Shown piece after piece: positions 1,061-25,402 of a stretch of 29,848 bases of DNA. Every line of letters begins with the position of its first letter. Position 1 is the stretch's first letter. This DNA is from a virus, in the IMG/VR virus record IMGVR_UViG_3300017732_000037, positions 1 through 29,848 of that record. The stretch is one strand, 5' to 3'. The position numbers and the translations under genes are program-made. The notes below the pieces were generated by a model that saw only the letters and a list, made by a program, of their open reading frames with translations, was not told the DNA's origin and made no database searches.

Positions 1061-1340
1061 ACAAAATTATTATGAACTTAAAAGGTTATTTAATGAAATA
1101 AAAGACACAAGTAGAAGAAGTAAAAGTTTGGATAATGAACGATTTGAAGATGTTTCAGATTCATTAGCTAATAGCGATAAAGAGGGAAAGGTAGAATTAT
1201 CAAGTTATATGGATTTTTATTTGGGTATGCGTTCAAACAGACAAATAAAAGATATTGTACCACCTGCGGGTTTAAAAGCCACTAACAGTAATTATTGCGA
1301 CTCTAAGTTTGTAAAGAGTTTAGATTTAAAGGAAAAATAA
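1038..1340 (+). CDS. Small charged hypothetical protein
   Basis: A 100-residue protein starting MARKYEAKQNYYELK. The frame is open further upstream to 1002, but the ATG at 1038 has a good GGAG about 7 bases before it, so I prefer it. The N-terminal half is strongly charged and helical (LKRLFNEIKDTSRRSKSLDNE), followed by a more polar C-terminus with SNRQIKDIVPPAGLK. I recognise no domain. The TAA overlaps the ATG of the ParB-like gene (TAATG), which places it in the same transcript as the modification cassette. Confidence 0.55.
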   Translation: MARKYEAKQNYYELKRLFNEIKDTSRRSKSLDNERFEDVSDSLANSDKEGKVELSSYMDFYLGMRSNRQIKDIVPPAGLKATNSNYCDSKFVKSLDLKEK

Positions 1341-1942
1341 TGAATATAATACAAACAGACATTGAAAAAGTTATTCCATATCAAAATAACCCAAGAAAAA
1401 ACCAATCAATTGAAAAGGTTTCAAGGTCAATAAAAGATTTTGGCTTCCAACAACCGATCGTAGTGGATAAAAAAATGGTGGTCATTGTAGGTCATACTAG
1501 GTTATTAGGTGCCAAAAAACTTGGATTAAAACAAGTGCCAGTCGTTATAGCGGATTTAAGCGACACAAAGGCAAAAGCCTATAGAATAGCTGATAATAGA
1601 GTTAATGAAGACTCTGGGTGGGATAATAAGCTATTACAAGATGAATTAAATAAATTACTAGATTTTGATATTGATTTAAATATCACTGGTTTTAGTAATG
1701 ATGAATTAGATAGTTTATTCGCAAAAGAGGAGGTAAGTTTTACCGATCCAATCGGAGAAATAGTACAAGACGATAACCATTTATTAAATGACGTCAAAAT
1801 GATACAGTTATTTTATGAACCAGAAAATGAAAAAAAATTTAGAGAAATAATTGAGAAAGTAAGAGAACAGCATAATATTGATAATATATCAGATGCAGTT
1901 TTACATTGTGTTTTTAAAGAGGAAAAAAACCTAAAGGTATAA
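1340..1942 (+). CDS. ParB N-terminal-domain (ParB/sulfiredoxin-like) protein
   Basis: A 200-residue protein with a typical ParB-like N-terminal domain. It shows PYQNNPRKN at residues 13-21, then SRSIKDFGFQQPIVVD, then VIVGHTRLLGAKKLG, where GHTR (51-54) matches the GHxR nucleotide-binding motif, and then VPVVIADLSDTKAKAYRIADNR. In phages such domains are often fused or adjacent to DNA methyltransferases and other DNA-modifying genes. Here the rest of the protein (from about residue 125) is a short acidic region, not a methyltransferase. It sits directly upstream of the dioxygenase and glycosyltransferase genes, so a DNA-related role in modification is inferred. It is not a plasmid-type ParB with a central HTH; no parS or ParA is visible. 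Confidence 0.85.
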   Translation: MNIIQTDIEKVIPYQNNPRKNQSIEKVSRSIKDFGFQQPIVVDKKMVVIVGHTRLLGAKKLGLKQVPVVIADLSDTKAKAYRIADNRVNEDSGWDNKLLQDELNKLLDFDIDLNITGFSNDELDSLFAKEEVSFTDPIGEIVQDDNHLLNDVKMIQLFYEPENEKKFREIIEKVREQHNIDNISDAVLHCVFKEEKNLKV

Positions 1943-1944
1943 TT

Positions 1945-2919
1945 ATGAAAACCATTAAATTACAACCAGTTATGACAGAAAAAGAAGCTGATAGTTTAAT
2001 AGGTGCTTTTTTAACTGAAAAACATATTAAGCATTTAATTACAGAAGATACCGAAGTTTTTAAAGAAAATGGGGATTTATTATGTGTTTTAAAAAAAAAT
2101 GCAGTTTCGAATAATATATTAGAAAACGCAAGAATACCATTTAGGAAGTCAGCAAAACAATCAAACAACAGAGGTTCAGCATCTGGCGATATTGATAAAT
2201 TATATAAAATTGGGGATAAAATTGATGGTCGAGTTATTGGCAAAATTAATGGCAGTAAATATATTCCAATATTGAGTAATGGTAAACTTTCTAAAACTTG
2301 TTATTCGTTACCCGTCAACAGTTCTGTTATAGGTTTTATGGATAGATACCCAAGAATACCATATTGTAGAACAACAGCATTTTCACAATCACATTTCAAT
2401 GAATATAAACTTTGTATACCCTATATTCAAAGCATTAATGAAGTTTTTAAAAGGTATGCCCCTCATAGGTATAAAATACAACAAGCTATGGCTGATTCAT
2501 CTTCTCAAGATTTTATAATAAATAATACTGCATTTACAACTGTAACTGTTAATAAAAATTTTAGAACTGCGGGTCATAAAGATCAAGGCGATTTAAAAGA
2601 GGGGTTTGGTAATTTAGGTGTTATTTCAAGGGGTAAGTATAAAGGGTTTCAAACTGTTTTACCAAGGTATGGTGTCGGATTGGATATAGGGCATGGAGAT
2701 GTTGCTTTATTTGATGTTCACGAAGTACATGGTAACACAGACGTTGAAAAAATTAGTTATTTTGAAAGAATATCAATAGTTTGTTATTATAGGGAAAAAA
2801 TGATTTATTGCGGAACTAAAGAGTACGAACTTAATAGAGCTAAAACGGAAACGAAAAAAATAGCTTTACCAGAGGAACTAAAAAAAGCAGAAGAAATAAG
2901 AAAAAGCATATTTAATTAA
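1945..2919 (+). CDS. TET/JBP-like 2-oxoglutarate/Fe(II) DNA-base dioxygenase
   Basis: A 324-residue protein whose second half carries the TET/JBP double-stranded beta-helix signature. H211 and D213 form the HxD motif (FRTAGHKDQGD), a long insert leads to DIGHGDVALFDVHEVHG with the distal iron ligand H262, and R275 (SYFERISIVCYY) fits the 2-oxoglutarate-binding arginine. Spacings of 51 and 64 residues from the first His are close to those I recall for JBP1. Members oxidise 5-methylcytosine or thymine in DNA to the hydroxymethyl base. The next gene, overlapping by one base, is a glycosyltransferase of the type known to follow phage TET genes, which supports a DNA hypermodification role. The substrate is uncertain because no cytosine-5 methyltransferase is present in the window. 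Confidence 0.87.
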   Translation: MKTIKLQPVMTEKEADSLIGAFLTEKHIKHLITEDTEVFKENGDLLCVLKKNAVSNNILENARIPFRKSAKQSNNRGSASGDIDKLYKIGDKIDGRVIGKINGSKYIPILSNGKLSKTCYSLPVNSSVIGFMDRYPRIPYCRTTAFSQSHFNEYKLCIPYIQSINEVFKRYAPHRYKIQQAMADSSSQDFIINNTAFTTVTVNKNFRTAGHKDQGDLKEGFGNLGVISRGKYKGFQTVLPRYGVGLDIGHGDVALFDVHEVHGNTDVEKISYFERISIVCYYREKMIYCGTKEYELNRAKTETKKIALPEELKKAEEIRKSIFN

Positions 2920-3680
2920 TGTATTACCCAATTTATATTCCAAGTAAAAATAGACCAGAGGGTAAATCCTTTGATTTATTGAAAGATATTGATACTGAAA
3001 AATATATAATTGTTGAACCTCAAGATATAGAAAAATATGAACATTTTAAAGATAATTTTAATATTCTAGTTTTAGAAAAAAATGATCAAGGTTTGTATTA
3101 TGTAAGGGATTTTACAAAAAACTATGCGGAAAAAACTAAAACTAAATGGTATTGGGTTATTGATGACGATATATCAAAGTTTTACAGAACAGAAAATAAA
3201 AAAAATAAACCCATTACACCAAACGAAGCATTAACAAGTGCAGAAGAACTTTTTAGTTCTATGCCTATAGCTTTAGGTGCTTTGGAATACCAACAATATG
3301 CTTGGAGTCAAACTAAACTTTTTAAAATAAATTCTTATGCAGATTGTGTGGTTTGTTTCAATGTTGAAAAAACTAAAAAATATAATTATGACTTACAATT
3401 TAAGTTAAAGGGAGATAGAGATATAACATTACAAATTATGGCAGATAAGCAATATGTAATGAGAGCTTTACAAATATCTTTCTCTTGCCCTAAATTTGGG
3501 AGTAATAAAGGCGGTCTTTTTGAAGTTTATAATAAGGAAAAATTAGAAAAGGATATGGCAGAATTACTTATGAATAAATGGGGTAATAGATACGTTATTA
3601 TTCAAAAGAAAAAAACAAATGATGGCATTAGATATGACGCAAAAATAAATTGGAAGGCATTTAGTGTTAAAATAAATTAA
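2919..3680 (+). CDS. TET-associated GT-A glycosyltransferase (TAGT-like)
   Basis: A 253-residue protein with a GT-A fold pattern. The N-terminus IYIPSKNRPEGKSFDLL is the usual entry strand and loop, followed by YIIVEPQDIEKY, then the strand WYWVIDDDIS with the metal/nucleotide-sugar DDD at residues 82-84. A later acidic motif, LKGDRDITLQIM (163-174), fits the acceptor or catalytic region. In phages such enzymes add a sugar to the hydroxymethyl group made by an adjacent TET/JBP enzyme. Its ATG overlaps the dioxygenase stop (TAATG), which argues for coordinated expression. The sugar donor cannot be told from sequence. The terminase genes follow 31 bases downstream. Confidence 0.8.
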   Translation: MYYPIYIPSKNRPEGKSFDLLKDIDTEKYIIVEPQDIEKYEHFKDNFNILVLEKNDQGLYYVRDFTKNYAEKTKTKWYWVIDDDISKFYRTENKKNKPITPNEALTSAEELFSSMPIALGALEYQQYAWSQTKLFKINSYADCVVCFNVEKTKKYNYDLQFKLKGDRDITLQIMADKQYVMRALQISFSCPKFGSNKGGLFEVYNKEKLEKDMAELLMNKWGNRYVIIQKKKTNDGIRYDAKINWKAFSVKIN

Positions 3681-3710
3681 AAACTTTTACTCAAAGGAAA
3701 AAAGAGGATT

Positions 3711-4013
3711 ATGGCTAGACCAAAGAAATATCAAATAGATACAAATCAACTTACAAATTTAGCAAAATTAGGGTGTACGAATTTAGAAATGGCAGATTTT
3801 TTCGGTTGTTCAGCAGACCTTTTAGAAAAGAGTTATTCGGAATATCTGACAAAAGGGAGAGCAGAGCAAAAAATGAGGTTAAGACAGCTCCAATGGAGAG
3901 CTTGTGAAAACGGAAATGTAAGTATGCTTATATTCTTAGGAAAAAATATGTTGGGTCAACAAGATAGACTTGAGGAATCAGCATCAGAAGAACCTTTGCC
4001 ATGGACTAATTAA
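3711..4013 (+). CDS. Terminase small subunit
   Basis: A 100-residue protein placed directly before the large terminase and overlapping it by one base. The N-terminus MARPKKYQID, the helix-turn-helix-like LAKLGCTNLEMADFFGCSADLLEK, and the later MLIFLGKNMLGQQDR are typical of small terminase subunits of siphoviruses. This subunit recognises the packaging site on phage DNA and feeds it to the large subunit. A purine-rich ribosome binding site (AAGAGGA) lies just before the ATG. The ID is based on pattern and context. Confidence 0.85.
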   Translation: MARPKKYQIDTNQLTNLAKLGCTNLEMADFFGCSADLLEKSYSEYLTKGRAEQKMRLRQLQWRACENGNVSMLIFLGKNMLGQQDRLEESASEEPLPWTN

Positions 4014-5230
4014 TGCCCTTAACCAAACCGCAAACACAAGTTATAAAAGATAATTCAAGGTTTCGAGTTCTTATTACTGGTAGAAGATTTGGTAAAACGT
4101 ATCTAGCAATAAATGAATTAGCAAAATTTGCAAGTAGATCAAATCAAAAGGTATGGTATGTAGCACCAACTTATAGACAAGCCAAACAAATATGTTGGAC
4201 TGAACTAAAAGAAAGATTAATAGATCATAAGTGGGTAAAAAATATCAATAACAGCGATTTAACTATTACCTTAAAAAATAATTCAAAAATAACATTAAGG
4301 GGTGCTGATAATGAGCAATCTTTAAGGGGTGTTGGTTTAGATTTTATTGTACTAGATGAGTTTGCAGATATTCATAAAGAAGCATGGTATGAAGTATTAA
4401 GACCCACATTATCAGATACTGGCGGTCATGCTTTGTTTTGTGGAAGTCCTAGAGGGTTTGGTAACTGGTCATATGAATTATTTAAACAAGGCGAAACTAA
4501 CAATGAATGGTCATCATTTAAATATACAACTTTAGAGGGTGGTCAAGTAAGTGATGCAGAAGTAGAGCAAGCCAAACAAGACCTTGATATTAGAACATTC
4601 CAACAAGAGTATGAAGCCACGTTTGTAAATTACTCTGGAATGATTTATTATAATTTTAATAGACAAAAAAACATTATTGATAAATTTGAAAAAAATACCT
4701 TATCGTTGCACATAGGTTTAGATTTTAACGTCGACCCAATGACTGCGGTTGTTTCTATTATTGAAAGAGATATAATTATTGTTGTAGATGAAATACAAAT
4801 TTATTCCTCAAATACTCAAGAAATGTGCGAGGAAATAGGAAATAGATATAAAAATAAAAATATAATTGTTTACCCAGACCCAAGTGCTAGACAAAGAAAA
4901 ACGTCTGCGGGAGGCTTTACTGATATATCTATTTTGAAAAATGCAGGTTTTGATGTAAGATGTAGAAATACAGCACCTTTGGTAAGGGATAGAATAAACG
5001 CAGTAAATTCAAAACTAAAAAATGTAAATGGGAAAAATAACTTGTTTATTGTAAAGTCTTGTAAAAATGTAATTAAAAGCATAGAGAGACAGATTTATAA
5101 AGAAGGAACACATATTCCAGATAAAGATAGTGGTTACGACCACATGAATGATGCGTTAGGTTATTTAGTCGAATTTAATTTTCCATTAAAAAGGAATTTT
5201 ATTTCAAAACCACAACAAAGGTGGAGTTAA
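4013..5230 (+). CDS. Terminase large subunit (ATPase and nuclease)
   Basis: A 405-residue packaging motor. The ATPase half shows Walker A GRRFGKT (residues 23-29), Walker B FIVLDEF (111-117, with D115 and E116) and the coupling motif CGSPRG (143-148). The RNase H-like nuclease half shows GLDFNVDP with D237, VYPDPS with D289, and YDHMNDALGYL with D376 and D380, which fit the three acidic metal sites. It pumps DNA into the prohead and cuts the concatemer. The length is on the short side but both domains are complete. It overlaps the small subunit and the portal gene by one base each. Confidence 0.96.
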   Translation: MPLTKPQTQVIKDNSRFRVLITGRRFGKTYLAINELAKFASRSNQKVWYVAPTYRQAKQICWTELKERLIDHKWVKNINNSDLTITLKNNSKITLRGADNEQSLRGVGLDFIVLDEFADIHKEAWYEVLRPTLSDTGGHALFCGSPRGFGNWSYELFKQGETNNEWSSFKYTTLEGGQVSDAEVEQAKQDLDIRTFQQEYEATFVNYSGMIYYNFNRQKNIIDKFEKNTLSLHIGLDFNVDPMTAVVSIIERDIIIVVDEIQIYSSNTQEMCEEIGNRYKNKNIIVYPDPSARQRKTSAGGFTDISILKNAGFDVRCRNTAPLVRDRINAVNSKLKNVNGKNNLFIVKSCKNVIKSIERQIYKEGTHIPDKDSGYDHMNDALGYLVEFNFPLKRNFISKPQQRWS

Positions 5231-9128: not shown

Positions 9129-9971
9129 ATGGCAAACGAAACTACCAGTTCAACCATTTCGGAACTATATACCGAGATAGTTGCAGAAGCTATGTTCACA
9201 GCTAGTGAGCAATCAATAATGAAAGGTTTAGTTAGAAACTACACTATTGCGGGTGGTGGAAAATCAGTAGAAGTGCCGATTTATCCAACAGTTTCAGCAA
9301 GTGCAGTAAGTGAAGCATCTGATCTTTCAAATACAGCGATTAATCCAAGTTCTGTTACAATAACAGCATCAGAAGTTGGTATTATGACAACATTAACCGA
9401 TTTAGCTAGAAATTCAGCATCAAGGAATGTAGCTCAAGATATTGGGCGAGTTTTTGGTGAAGCTATAGCTAGAAAGATTGATTTAGACCTAACAGCTTTA
9501 TTTGATGGGTTTTCAACAGCAGTTGGCGGTGCAAGTGCAGTATTAACAGCAGATACAGTTGCACAGGCACACGCAAATCTAAGAAATAGTTCAGTACCAA
9601 TGAATGACTTAGCTTTAGTTATTCACCCAATGGTGGCACATGACCTTAAAAGAGGTATGACTAACACCTATGCGGGTTTAGATACTGATATTTCTAATGA
9701 AGCATTACGTTCTGGATTTATAGGAACTTTATTTGGTGTTCCAGTATTTGAAACTGCTAATATGGCAAACACAGGTACAGCGGGTGACTATAAGGGTGCT
9801 ATGTTCCATAGAGATGCTTTAGGGTTAGCTATGATGCAAGACCTTAAAATAGAAATCCAAAGAGATGCTAGTTTAAGAGCAGATGAAATTGTAGCAACAG
9901 CGGTTTATGGTGTTGGAGAACTACAAGATAGCTATGGAATAGAAATCGTAGCAGATTCATCAATCCAATAA
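9129..9971 (+). CDS. Major capsid protein
   Basis: A 280-residue protein with the strongest ribosome binding site in the head cluster (AAAGGAG, 6 bases before ATG). The sequence is Ala/Thr/Ser-rich, with SEASDLSNTAINPSSVTIT, LTDLARNSASRNVAQDIGR, and ALVIHPMVAHDLK followed by GTLFGVPVFETANM. These match HK97-fold capsid proteins of siphoviruses, including the typical A-domain end (AVYGVGELQDSYGIEIVAD). It would build the icosahedral shell. A stable hairpin directly follows the stop codon. Confidence 0.93.
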   Translation: MANETTSSTISELYTEIVAEAMFTASEQSIMKGLVRNYTIAGGGKSVEVPIYPTVSASAVSEASDLSNTAINPSSVTITASEVGIMTTLTDLARNSASRNVAQDIGRVFGEAIARKIDLDLTALFDGFSTAVGGASAVLTADTVAQAHANLRNSSVPMNDLALVIHPMVAHDLKRGMTNTYAGLDTDISNEALRSGFIGTLFGVPVFETANMANTGTAGDYKGAMFHRDALGLAMMQDLKIEIQRDASLRADEIVATAVYGVGELQDSYGIEIVADSSIQ

Positions 9972-15271: not shown

Positions 15272-15838
15272 ATGGCAAGGGGTTTAACAAGTGCAGTAAA
15301 AACAGAACTAGCCACAGGAATAATAGAACCAGTTATTTTAGTAGAAATAGGTTTTTCAACCCCAATATATTTAACTAATGCAAGTTTTGATTTAACATCT
15401 AGTGTTTCTGGAACTTCAAGAACATACCTATCTAATGGGCATTTAAGAGGTATTACAGGGGTGCAAGAAACAAACGCACCAACTAAGAATAGTTTGTCTG
15501 TTAGCTTATCTGGGGTAGATCAAACTTACATAGCACTAGCATTAACCGAGAATATAATTAATGATGATGTTTTTATTTATAGAGGGTATTTAAATTCTAG
15601 TTTAGCATTAATAGCAGACCCATTTTTATTATTTTATGGTAATATTGACGAATTTAGAATATCCGATAACACATCAACAGCAACATTAGTTTTGGTTGTT
15701 AGTTCACATTGGGGTAATTTTAGCAAAACAAGTGGAAGAACAACTACAAATAATTCACAACAAAGATTTTTTAGTGATGATGTTGGTATGGTATTTAGTG
15801 CTTTAACTGTTAGGGATATTAAGTGGGGTAGAGAATGA
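15272..15838 (+). CDS. Tail hub-like minor tail protein (DUF2163-like)
   Basis: A 188-residue protein beginning MARGLTSAVKTELATGIIEPVILVEIGFSTP, which is close in style to the N-terminus of DUF2163/gpL-like tail proteins, with strands for LTNASFDLTSS, YLSNGHLRGITGV and VSLSGVDQTYIALAL. It would sit in the tail tip between the distal tail ring and the J-like protein. No C-terminal cysteines for an iron-sulfur site (as in lambda gpL) are visible, so it may be a simplified form. It overlaps the next gene by 4 bases. Confidence 0.65.
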   Translation: MARGLTSAVKTELATGIIEPVILVEIGFSTPIYLTNASFDLTSSVSGTSRTYLSNGHLRGITGVQETNAPTKNSLSVSLSGVDQTYIALALTENIINDDVFIYRGYLNSSLALIADPFLLFYGNIDEFRISDNTSTATLVLVVSSHWGNFSKTSGRTTTNNSQQRFFSDDVGMVFSALTVRDIKWGRE

Positions 15839-16278
15839 CAAGTATTCATTTATTTCAAGCGGAAAAAAAAGATTTTGAAAATATTTATAATTTATTAATT
15901 GAATTTAAAGATATTGATTTAGCTGATTTAAATTTCCCAGATGTAGATAAGCCTAAATTAACTAAATTTATAAATACAATATTACAAAAAGGTAAAATAA
16001 TTCTTGCAAAAGATTTAGATAAAAATGAATTAGTTGGTTGTTGTATATTTCATAAATCAGAATTTTGGTTTAGCAAAGGGCAAATATTTAATATTGATGT
16101 AATATATATTAAGAAAAATTTTAGAAATTATAAACTTGTAAAAACAATTATTGAAAGTGTTAAGAAACTTGCAGATGGTTTGCCTATTGTTTTGGGTGTA
16201 ACAACTTCATTAAAAATAGACCCAGTTTTCCAAAAATTAGGGTTTGAAAATGTCGGTAGTAACTGGAGATTAAACTAA
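15835..16278 (+). CDS. GNAT-like acetyltransferase domain protein
   Basis: A 147-residue protein with GNAT fold features. The N-terminus IHLFQAEKKDFENIYNLLIEF is the usual first strand and helix. ELVGCCIFHKSEFWF is the central hairpin, IFNIDVIYIKKNFRNYKLVKTIIE is the acetyl-CoA region, and VFQKLGFENVGSNW the usual C-terminal end. The acetyl-CoA loop, normally Q/RxxGxG/A, reads RNYKLV and lacks the glycines, so activity is doubtful. It sits in the tail operon where lambda-like phages carry the gpK peptidase gene. Acetylation of a tail protein is possible; a structural use of the fold is the alternative. Confidence 0.75.
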   Translation: MTSIHLFQAEKKDFENIYNLLIEFKDIDLADLNFPDVDKPKLTKFINTILQKGKIILAKDLDKNELVGCCIFHKSEFWFSKGQIFNIDVIYIKKNFRNYKLVKTIIESVKKLADGLPIVLGVTTSLKIDPVFQKLGFENVGSNWRLN

Positions 16279-22660: not shown

Positions 22661-22866
22661 TGGAAAAAGATAAAAAAATAGTTAATTTAGATATAGGGCA
22701 AAATAGCTTTGAATTATCACTTAGAATTTTAGGAAATGAATTTGTTGCAATAAAGATTGGTTCAACAAACTTTTCTGGTAAACTTATAGCGGGTGGTATT
22801 TTATTATTGTTTTTTACTTTGGTTTTATTAGAGGGTTTTGGATTAAATGAGATTTTAATACAATGA
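22660..22866 (+). CDS. Small single-membrane-segment protein
   Basis: A 68-residue protein; the start ATG at 22660 overlaps the upstream TGA (the frame extends to a TTG at 22657). The N-terminal half is polar and beta-like (IVNLDIGQNSFELSLRILG), followed by a membrane segment (LIAGGILLLFFTLVLLEGF, about residues 41-60). It sits between other membrane genes and the endolysin. It may be an accessory lysis or membrane protein; no specific family is known to me. Confidence 0.55.
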   Translation: MEKDKKIVNLDIGQNSFELSLRILGNEFVAIKIGSTNFSGKLIAGGILLLFFTLVLLEGFGLNEILIQ

Positions 22867-24891: not shown

Positions 24892-25094
24892 GATTTACCC
24901 CCTACAAATACAATAAGTTTGGAGCATATTGTATATTTTTTTCCAAAAAATTTAACTTAACTTGGTGTTGCCTATGAAAACAACAATATATATATATCAG
25001 ACAAAAAATATTTCTGCAACAATAATACATTAATGGTTTACTTTTATAAACCTACTTGATATGCTAGGTTAATATTAATAAATGGAGCATAAAA
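24892..25094. promoter_or_regulatory. Divergent regulatory region between the nuclease and early genes
   Basis: This 203-base gap is the longest in the window. It is very AT-rich, with a TA repeat near 24985-24996 and a T/A-rich stretch near 24930-24955. It carries the rightward early promoter (see 25037). For leftward transcription, TACAAT on the minus strand (24928-24933) could be a -10 site for the nuclease gene, but no good -35 is visible. An origin or regulator site could also lie here; nothing further is recognised. Confidence 0.6.
25037..25071 (+). promoter_or_regulatory. Early promoter 1 with embedded inverted repeat
   Basis: TTTACT (25037-25042), a 17-base spacer and TATGCT (25060-25065) preceded by TGA make a sigma70-like promoter with an extended -10 (TGnTATGCT). 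An inverted repeat AACCTA...TAGGTT (25049-25070) overlaps the spacer and -10. A copy matching at 30 of 35 positions lies at 25368. Such overlap is typical for an operator. It would drive the ArdC-like gene, whose GGAGCA and ATG follow at 25083-25097. Confidence 0.75.
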
Positions 25095-25364
25095 ATGTAT
25101 TATAACGAAGAAACTAAAAGACCCTATTCTGGTAAAAATATAGAAATTTTAGAATCAACTGGTTTTAAAGGTGGTTTTATGACTTTTAGACAAGCTATCA
25201 AATTAGGTTATAAAGTCCCAAAGGGAACTAAAGCGGTTGCTAAAATTATCAGACCTATGGAAGAATTTAAAGAGCAAAGCGATGGTTCTTCAAAGGTAGA
25301 AATGTCTGGAAGAAAGTTTCCAGTTTTTCATAAATCACAATTAGAGGCACAATCTCCACAATAG
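25095..25364 (+). CDS. ArdC N-terminal-domain-like protein (antirestriction candidate)
   Basis: An 89-residue protein, the first gene after early promoter 1. RPYSGKNIEIL (9-19), FMTFRQAIKLGYKVPKGTKAV (28-48), then FPVFHKSQLE (75-84) match the ArdC N-terminal pattern (YxGxN, WLTFKQAxxLGxxVxKGEKG, VFNxxQ). In full ArdC this domain binds single-stranded DNA and is followed by a metalloprotease domain, absent here. A stand-alone version could shield incoming DNA from restriction or serve as a DNA-binding protein. Its own promoter and first position fit early antidefence use. Confidence 0.75.
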   Translation: MYYNEETKRPYSGKNIEILESTGFKGGFMTFRQAIKLGYKVPKGTKAVAKIIRPMEEFKEQSDGSSKVEMSGRKFPVFHKSQLEAQSPQ

Positions 25365-25367
25365 TGC

Positions 25368-25402
25368 TTTACTTTCTGTAACCTAGTTGATATGCTAGGT
25401 TA
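25368..25402 (+). promoter_or_regulatory. Early promoter 2 with perfect 7-bp inverted repeat
   Basis: TTTACT (25368-25373), a 17-base spacer and TATGCT (25391-25396) with the TGA extended -10. The inverted repeat AACCTAG...CTAGGTT (25380-25386 and 25395-25401) is perfect, with an 8-base centre. It differs from promoter 1 at only five of 35 bases. Transcription would start near 25403, placing the start codon of the next gene at 25441 rather than at the ATG at 25402. Confidence 0.75.

Follow-up and report, generated by a model that had tools for sequence, protein, structure and literature searches.

How a phage of about 30 kb could hypermodify its DNA, and which base it would alter, is the question raised by three genes that stand before the terminase genes in the stretch studied here, a viral sequence record 29,848 bases long (the window). 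The original prediction read them as a compact cassette that puts a sugar on a hydroxymethylated base before packaging. We favour, with moderate confidence, the reading that these genes form a minimal cassette for modifying thymine after replication, carried by a small tailed phage of the SAR11 type, with chemistry resembling that of base J. The genes and their right-hand neighbours are as follows.

1340–1942, plus strand: ParB-like protein (ParB_N domain), 200 aa; PF02195, E 2.9e-10; phrog_620, E 1.2e-48.
1945–2919, plus strand: TET/JBP 2-oxoglutarate/Fe(II) dioxygenase, 324 aa, predicted thymine hydroxylase; PF12851, E 3.5e-25.
2919–3680, plus strand: TAGT (TET-associated glycosyltransferase), 253 aa, with DDD; PF20691, E 1.9e-17; phrog_842, E 4.4e-23.
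3711–4013, plus strand: terminase small-subunit-like gene, adjoining TerL and forming the right border of the exchangeable slot described below; phrog_309, E 2.9e-4.
4013–5230, plus strand: terminase large subunit (TerL), 57% identical to that of Pelagibacter phage HTVC112P; PF03237, E 6.8e-12.

The three genes lie where they had been placed, all on the plus strand, and their assignment to the ParB_N, Tet_JBP and TAGT families was correct. The ParB and TET genes are 2 bases apart, and the TET and TAGT genes share one base. Profile searches had been proposed as a check, and the Tet_JBP and TAGT profiles both scored above the Pfam curated cut-offs (88.6 bits against 34.9 and 64.3 bits against 27.5, respectively); ParB_N reached 40.5 bits against a cut-off of 26.3. 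The same genes are conserved in dozens of contigs, which rules out chance. In the dioxygenase, the Fe ligands H211-x-D213 and H262 and the 2-oxoglutarate residue R275 are invariant across 38 relatives, and the closest solved folds to its AlphaFold model (pLDDT 93.6) are CcTet, TET2, NgTET1 and CMD1 (PDB search, E 1e-11 to 1e-9), with FTO next. A direct single-sequence search of TET and TAGT against solved structures gave no match, and a profile search reached TET2 (E 2.4e-5). Family, motif and fold therefore all agree with the predicted TET/JBP dioxygenase with an intact HxD...H...R, and the model lands nearest to the DNA TETs. In the glycosyltransferase, the DDD motif noted from the letters (D82-D83-D84) is invariant across 15 TAGT relatives; the model is poor (pLDDT 63), and the solved structures closest to it are weak matches (E 1e-5 to 1e-3), for the most part GT-A enzymes. 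These profile and fold searches suggest that the addition of a sugar to a hydroxymethylated base would be the right class of reaction.

A contig 99.95% identical to the window (L005) spans base 22765 to the window end and continues from base 8 to base 9382; as it joins both ends, the window amounts in effect to a complete genome in circularly permuted form. The capsid protein shares 69–75% identity with those of four Pelagibacter phages, namely HTVC026P, HTVC112P (74%), HTVC111P and HTVC202P. Together with the TerL identity to HTVC112P, this makes a SAR11-type host likely for this small tailed ocean phage. The genome had been described as being without its own polymerase, and indeed no DNA polymerase was found among the larger open reading frames, those above 400 aa being the terminase, portal, tape measure and tail proteins. 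Elsewhere in the window, a 45-base repeat (25027–25071 and 25358–25402, 82% identical) lies on either side of a small gene (25095–25364) with a weak match to the anti-restriction family phrog_7245; the repeat may represent two copies of a promoter or operator. A GNAT-type acetyltransferase-like gene (15835–16278) lies within the tail module, directly before the central tail fibre gene.

The window was compared with 80 viral contigs encoding TET relatives, many of the related records being fragments, and the genes downstream of TET were catalogued at 83 loci in total, including the window, HTVC112P and the Nonlabens (Persicivirga) phage P12024L. This slot holds TAGT, by itself or together with a second enzyme, at 21 loci, an FkbM methyltransferase at 20, ADDT-containing sets at 34 and a lone P-loop kinase at 3; the remaining loci are mostly cut by contig ends. 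The exchange can be seen in one contig (L006), whose DNA matches the window at 94.5% identity as far as base 2903 and again, at 97.1%, from base 3681 onwards. Its ParB, TET, TerS and TerL proteins are 96–100% identical to those of the window, whereas its slot protein shares 19% identity with the window TAGT and matches the TAGT profile over the first half only. Since the TET and TAGT stops are at 2919 and 3680, these breakpoints indicate that a single gene was swapped, edge to edge. The L006-type slot gene is also found in L008 and L011, and the window-type gene in L009 and L010. On the TET tree, the slot type changes at least 18 times, an estimate drawn from a quick tree with several open forks. 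The ParB-TET core is constant, and TAGT is one of several interchangeable decorators. Of the three-gene set first proposed, the ParB-TET pair stands as a fixed unit, but TAGT does not belong to it as a fixed member. The decorator is probably exchanged between close relatives to keep ahead of host DNA-cutting defences. The distance from the TAGT gene to the terminase small-subunit-like gene is 30 bases, and this nearness had been taken to mean that modification precedes packaging; the argument is weak, because other relatives have their terminase elsewhere and on the other strand. A methyltransferase-like protein with a YFAGAG motif, which we call MTx, was observed downstream of ParB-TET at L020:2502-3263 and about 18 other loci, where it is paired with ADDT and usually also with the kinase.

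TET/JBP enzymes act on a 5-methyl pyrimidine, either 5mC or thymine. In profile searches, the cytosine-C5 methyltransferase family (PF00145) was absent from the window and from 50 of 50 related records, many of them fragments, with HTVC112P and P12024L complete; a C5-methyltransferase query also gave no match in 89 loci. A TET phage of the cytosine type would be expected to encode this enzyme, and the original prediction had not remarked on its absence. Likewise, the thymidylate synthase/hydroxymethylase family (PF00303), which would include a hydroxymethylase of the ViI/M6 type, was absent from the window and from 50 of 50 related records, HTVC112P and P12024L among them. The slot of relatives contains ADDT (PF18724, E 1.1e-19; phrog_3271, E 1e-54 to 1e-68), 16 of the 34 ADDT loci have no methyltransferase-like gene at all, and ADDT relatives occur in phages annotated with thymine pyrophosphorylase. 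It is reported that phages M6, ViI and phiW-14 build their modified thymidines from 5hmdU by a kinase and a transferase (PMC6449724). The window TET is 76% identical to the TET of a GATase-ADDT-kinase locus (L023), so a shared substrate is likely. The missing C5-methyltransferase and the gene content of the relatives favour thymine, and we suggest that the TET most likely hydroxylates thymine rather than 5mC. A thymidylate synthase homologue is present in Cr30, a TET phage that likewise encodes ADDT, and this counts against the thymine reading. Two other candidate markers were set aside. The slot-type kinase is also found beside the C5-methyltransferase/TET pair of Melnitz phages and was rejected as a sign of thymine, which leaves ADDT and the missing methyltransferase to carry the argument, and the base-pocket residues were uninformative as a discriminator of thymine and 5mC, D216 being present also in the C5-methyltransferase-associated Melnitz TET. 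HTVC111P gp17 (L165:5853-6470) is annotated as a cytosine methyltransferase at the equivalent genome position but had no Pfam match.

The alternative that survives best, which we nevertheless consider unlikely, is that a C5-methyltransferase of the host, or an undetected divergent one of the phage, makes 5mC, which the TET then oxidises, and that TAGT glycosylates the resulting 5hmC. The one phage TET lineage for which activity has reportedly been shown (Burke et al., 2021) works in C5-cytosine hypermodification. In such cytosine TET phages, to which the Melnitz-type loci also belong, the TET makes a hydroxymethyl pyrimidine in DNA and other enzymes elaborate it, as we propose for the window; however, they need a phage C5-methyltransferase, and an HhaI-like one is adjacent in 63 of 63 loci of the separate Melnitz-type lineage with room upstream, while the window has none. 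Host C5-methylation could supply 5mC, a weak point of the thymine reading, but would be expected to yield only sparse, site-specific 5mC; a scan of genome contigs bearing on this supply returned three loci, none from SAR11. Nor are TAGT enzymes tied to one base, as T6-type phages probably employ one to attach a further glucose to glucosylated hmC, so that their TAGT acts on a modified cytosine (PMC13390438). In contrast, the ADDT of the relatives is linked to hmdU chemistry, and the MTx protein that some of them carry showed no Pfam match and no obvious PCQ motif and is absent from the window. Together with the PF00145 and C5-methyltransferase searches, these last points argue against the cytosine route.

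The ParB-like gene lies directly upstream of TET in 74 of the 74 loci with room for it, often overlapping the TET start codon, and the pair is kept across different genome backbones. The translation contains a GxxRxxA-like stretch (GHTRLLGA), of interest for a possible CTP-dependent clamp activity on DNA, and the protein is similar to the ParB-like domain at the N terminus of type II methyltransferases (PADLOC PDLC03229, E 3.9e-33). From this likeness, the TET may here be served in trans by a DNA-handling domain that usually comes fused to methyltransferases, and we propose the ParB-like protein as a putative DNA loader or targeting partner of the dioxygenase. More unlikely still than the cytosine alternative is that this protein has no part in modification, being for instance a remnant of a ParB-methyltransferase, and that the system consists of TET and the slot gene only. 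Small phages frequently encode ParB_N domains, in many cases fused to or beside methyltransferases, and the more distant TET-TAGT phage P12024L has no ParB upstream; against this stand the 74 of 74 loci with ParB directly upstream and its retention in different backbones.

In the mechanism that we propose, the ParB-like protein would load on or track along the phage DNA and deliver the TET. With Fe(II) and 2-oxoglutarate, the TET, placed in its class by homology, would hydroxylate the 5-methyl group of thymine, the predicted base, within DNA and give 5-hydroxymethyluracil as JBP does. TAGT, also classed by homology, would then add a nucleotide sugar supplied by the host to the hydroxyl, and the product would be a base-J-like glycosyl-hydroxymethyluracil, with sugar and acceptor both presumed. 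The modified DNA would be expected to resist host nucleases. The TAGT step would be a plug-in, as relatives appear to replace the decorator by recombination at the gene edges, and such a change would alter the modification and could aid escape from modification-specific defences. Because the TET would act on the polymer, neither a hydroxymethylase nor an own polymerase would be needed by this phage. The least probable of the alternatives is that TET and TAGT target the DNA or tRNA of the host, or mark a few sites for regulation, rather than modify phage DNA in bulk: ParB proteins usually act at specific sites, and phrog_6059, a weak match to the TET, is annotated as queuine tRNA-ribosyltransferase, but the closest folds of the dioxygenase are DNA TETs, its slot partners ADDT and TAGT are DNA-modification families, and the rapid allelic swapping of the slot gene fits an arms race.

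TET-TAGT systems have been found or predicted in phages before, small ones included; Iyer et al. reportedly predicted phage TET/JBP-glycosyltransferase systems in 2013. P12024L, with a genome of 35.7 kb, has a TET (38.6% identical) directly followed by a TAGT (36.2%) and resembles the window in having neither PF00145 nor PF00303, but an N6/N4 methyltransferase follows its TAGT. HTVC112P (32.5 kb) shares the backbone and the ParB-TET pair (42% and 52% identical), likewise with no C5-methyltransferase, but has the FkbM-type methyltransferase in place of TAGT; no mention of this phage was found in the literature searched. As these two phages and dozens of related contigs all have TET, the original remark that such systems are better known from larger phages is only partly right. 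Base J is formed by JBP and the UDP-glucose-dependent JGT (PMC10057400). The kinetoplastid system resembles our proposal, since JBP1/2 hydroxylate thymine and one glycosyltransferase then glucosylates it; however, base J is a eukaryotic epigenetic mark, whereas the window has a phage operon with ParB, an exchangeable third gene and a predicted base. Phages ViI, M6 and phiW-14 carry out thymidine hypermodification with a hydroxymethylase, a 5hmdU DNA kinase and ADDT, and relatives of the window hold these kinase and ADDT families in the slot. In those phages, 5hmdU enters via the nucleotide pool, whereas the TET of the window would make it in the polymer.

What appears to be new is a ParB-TET core free of methyltransferase with an allelically swapped decorator slot; no description of such a core, or of allelic replacement of the decorator between near-identical phages, was found in the literature searched. 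We put forward, as a tentative wider possibility, phage base-J-like DNA in which a thymine TET guided by a ParB clamp feeds swappable decorators (sugar, O-methyl, phosphate or amino-acid conjugates), so that one core might yield many thymine modifications in close marine phages. The family gives a clean and tractable prediction on the substrate of a phage TET, namely thymine, with neither a methyltransferase nor a nucleotide-pool enzyme. If true, phages would have a polymer-level route to modified thymine, which would explain how genomes of about 30 kb without a polymerase afford DNA hypermodification. Decorator genes would then be traded as alleles among phages of near-species relatedness, the expected outcome where host defences evolve to target particular modifications, and thymine-hydroxylating TETs would serve as useful reagents.

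Other contents of the slot were also observed. In L016, L017 and L018, the P-loop kinase stands alone after ParB-TET, between TET and TerS (for example, L017:4855-5379), and a phosphorylated hydroxymethyl base would be predicted as the end product. In PHROGs, this kinase family carries the label 'terminase small subunit' (phrog_800), probably in error. The slot of L029, L032, L033, L036, L051, L064 and L066 contains a set of glutamine amidotransferase, amidoligase-like protein, GNAT and ADDT, from which an acylated amino-acid conjugate on the base is a possible product. One contig assigned to a Winogradskyella MAG (L161) carries a TET of the ParB-TET type and is probably a mis-binned phage contig.
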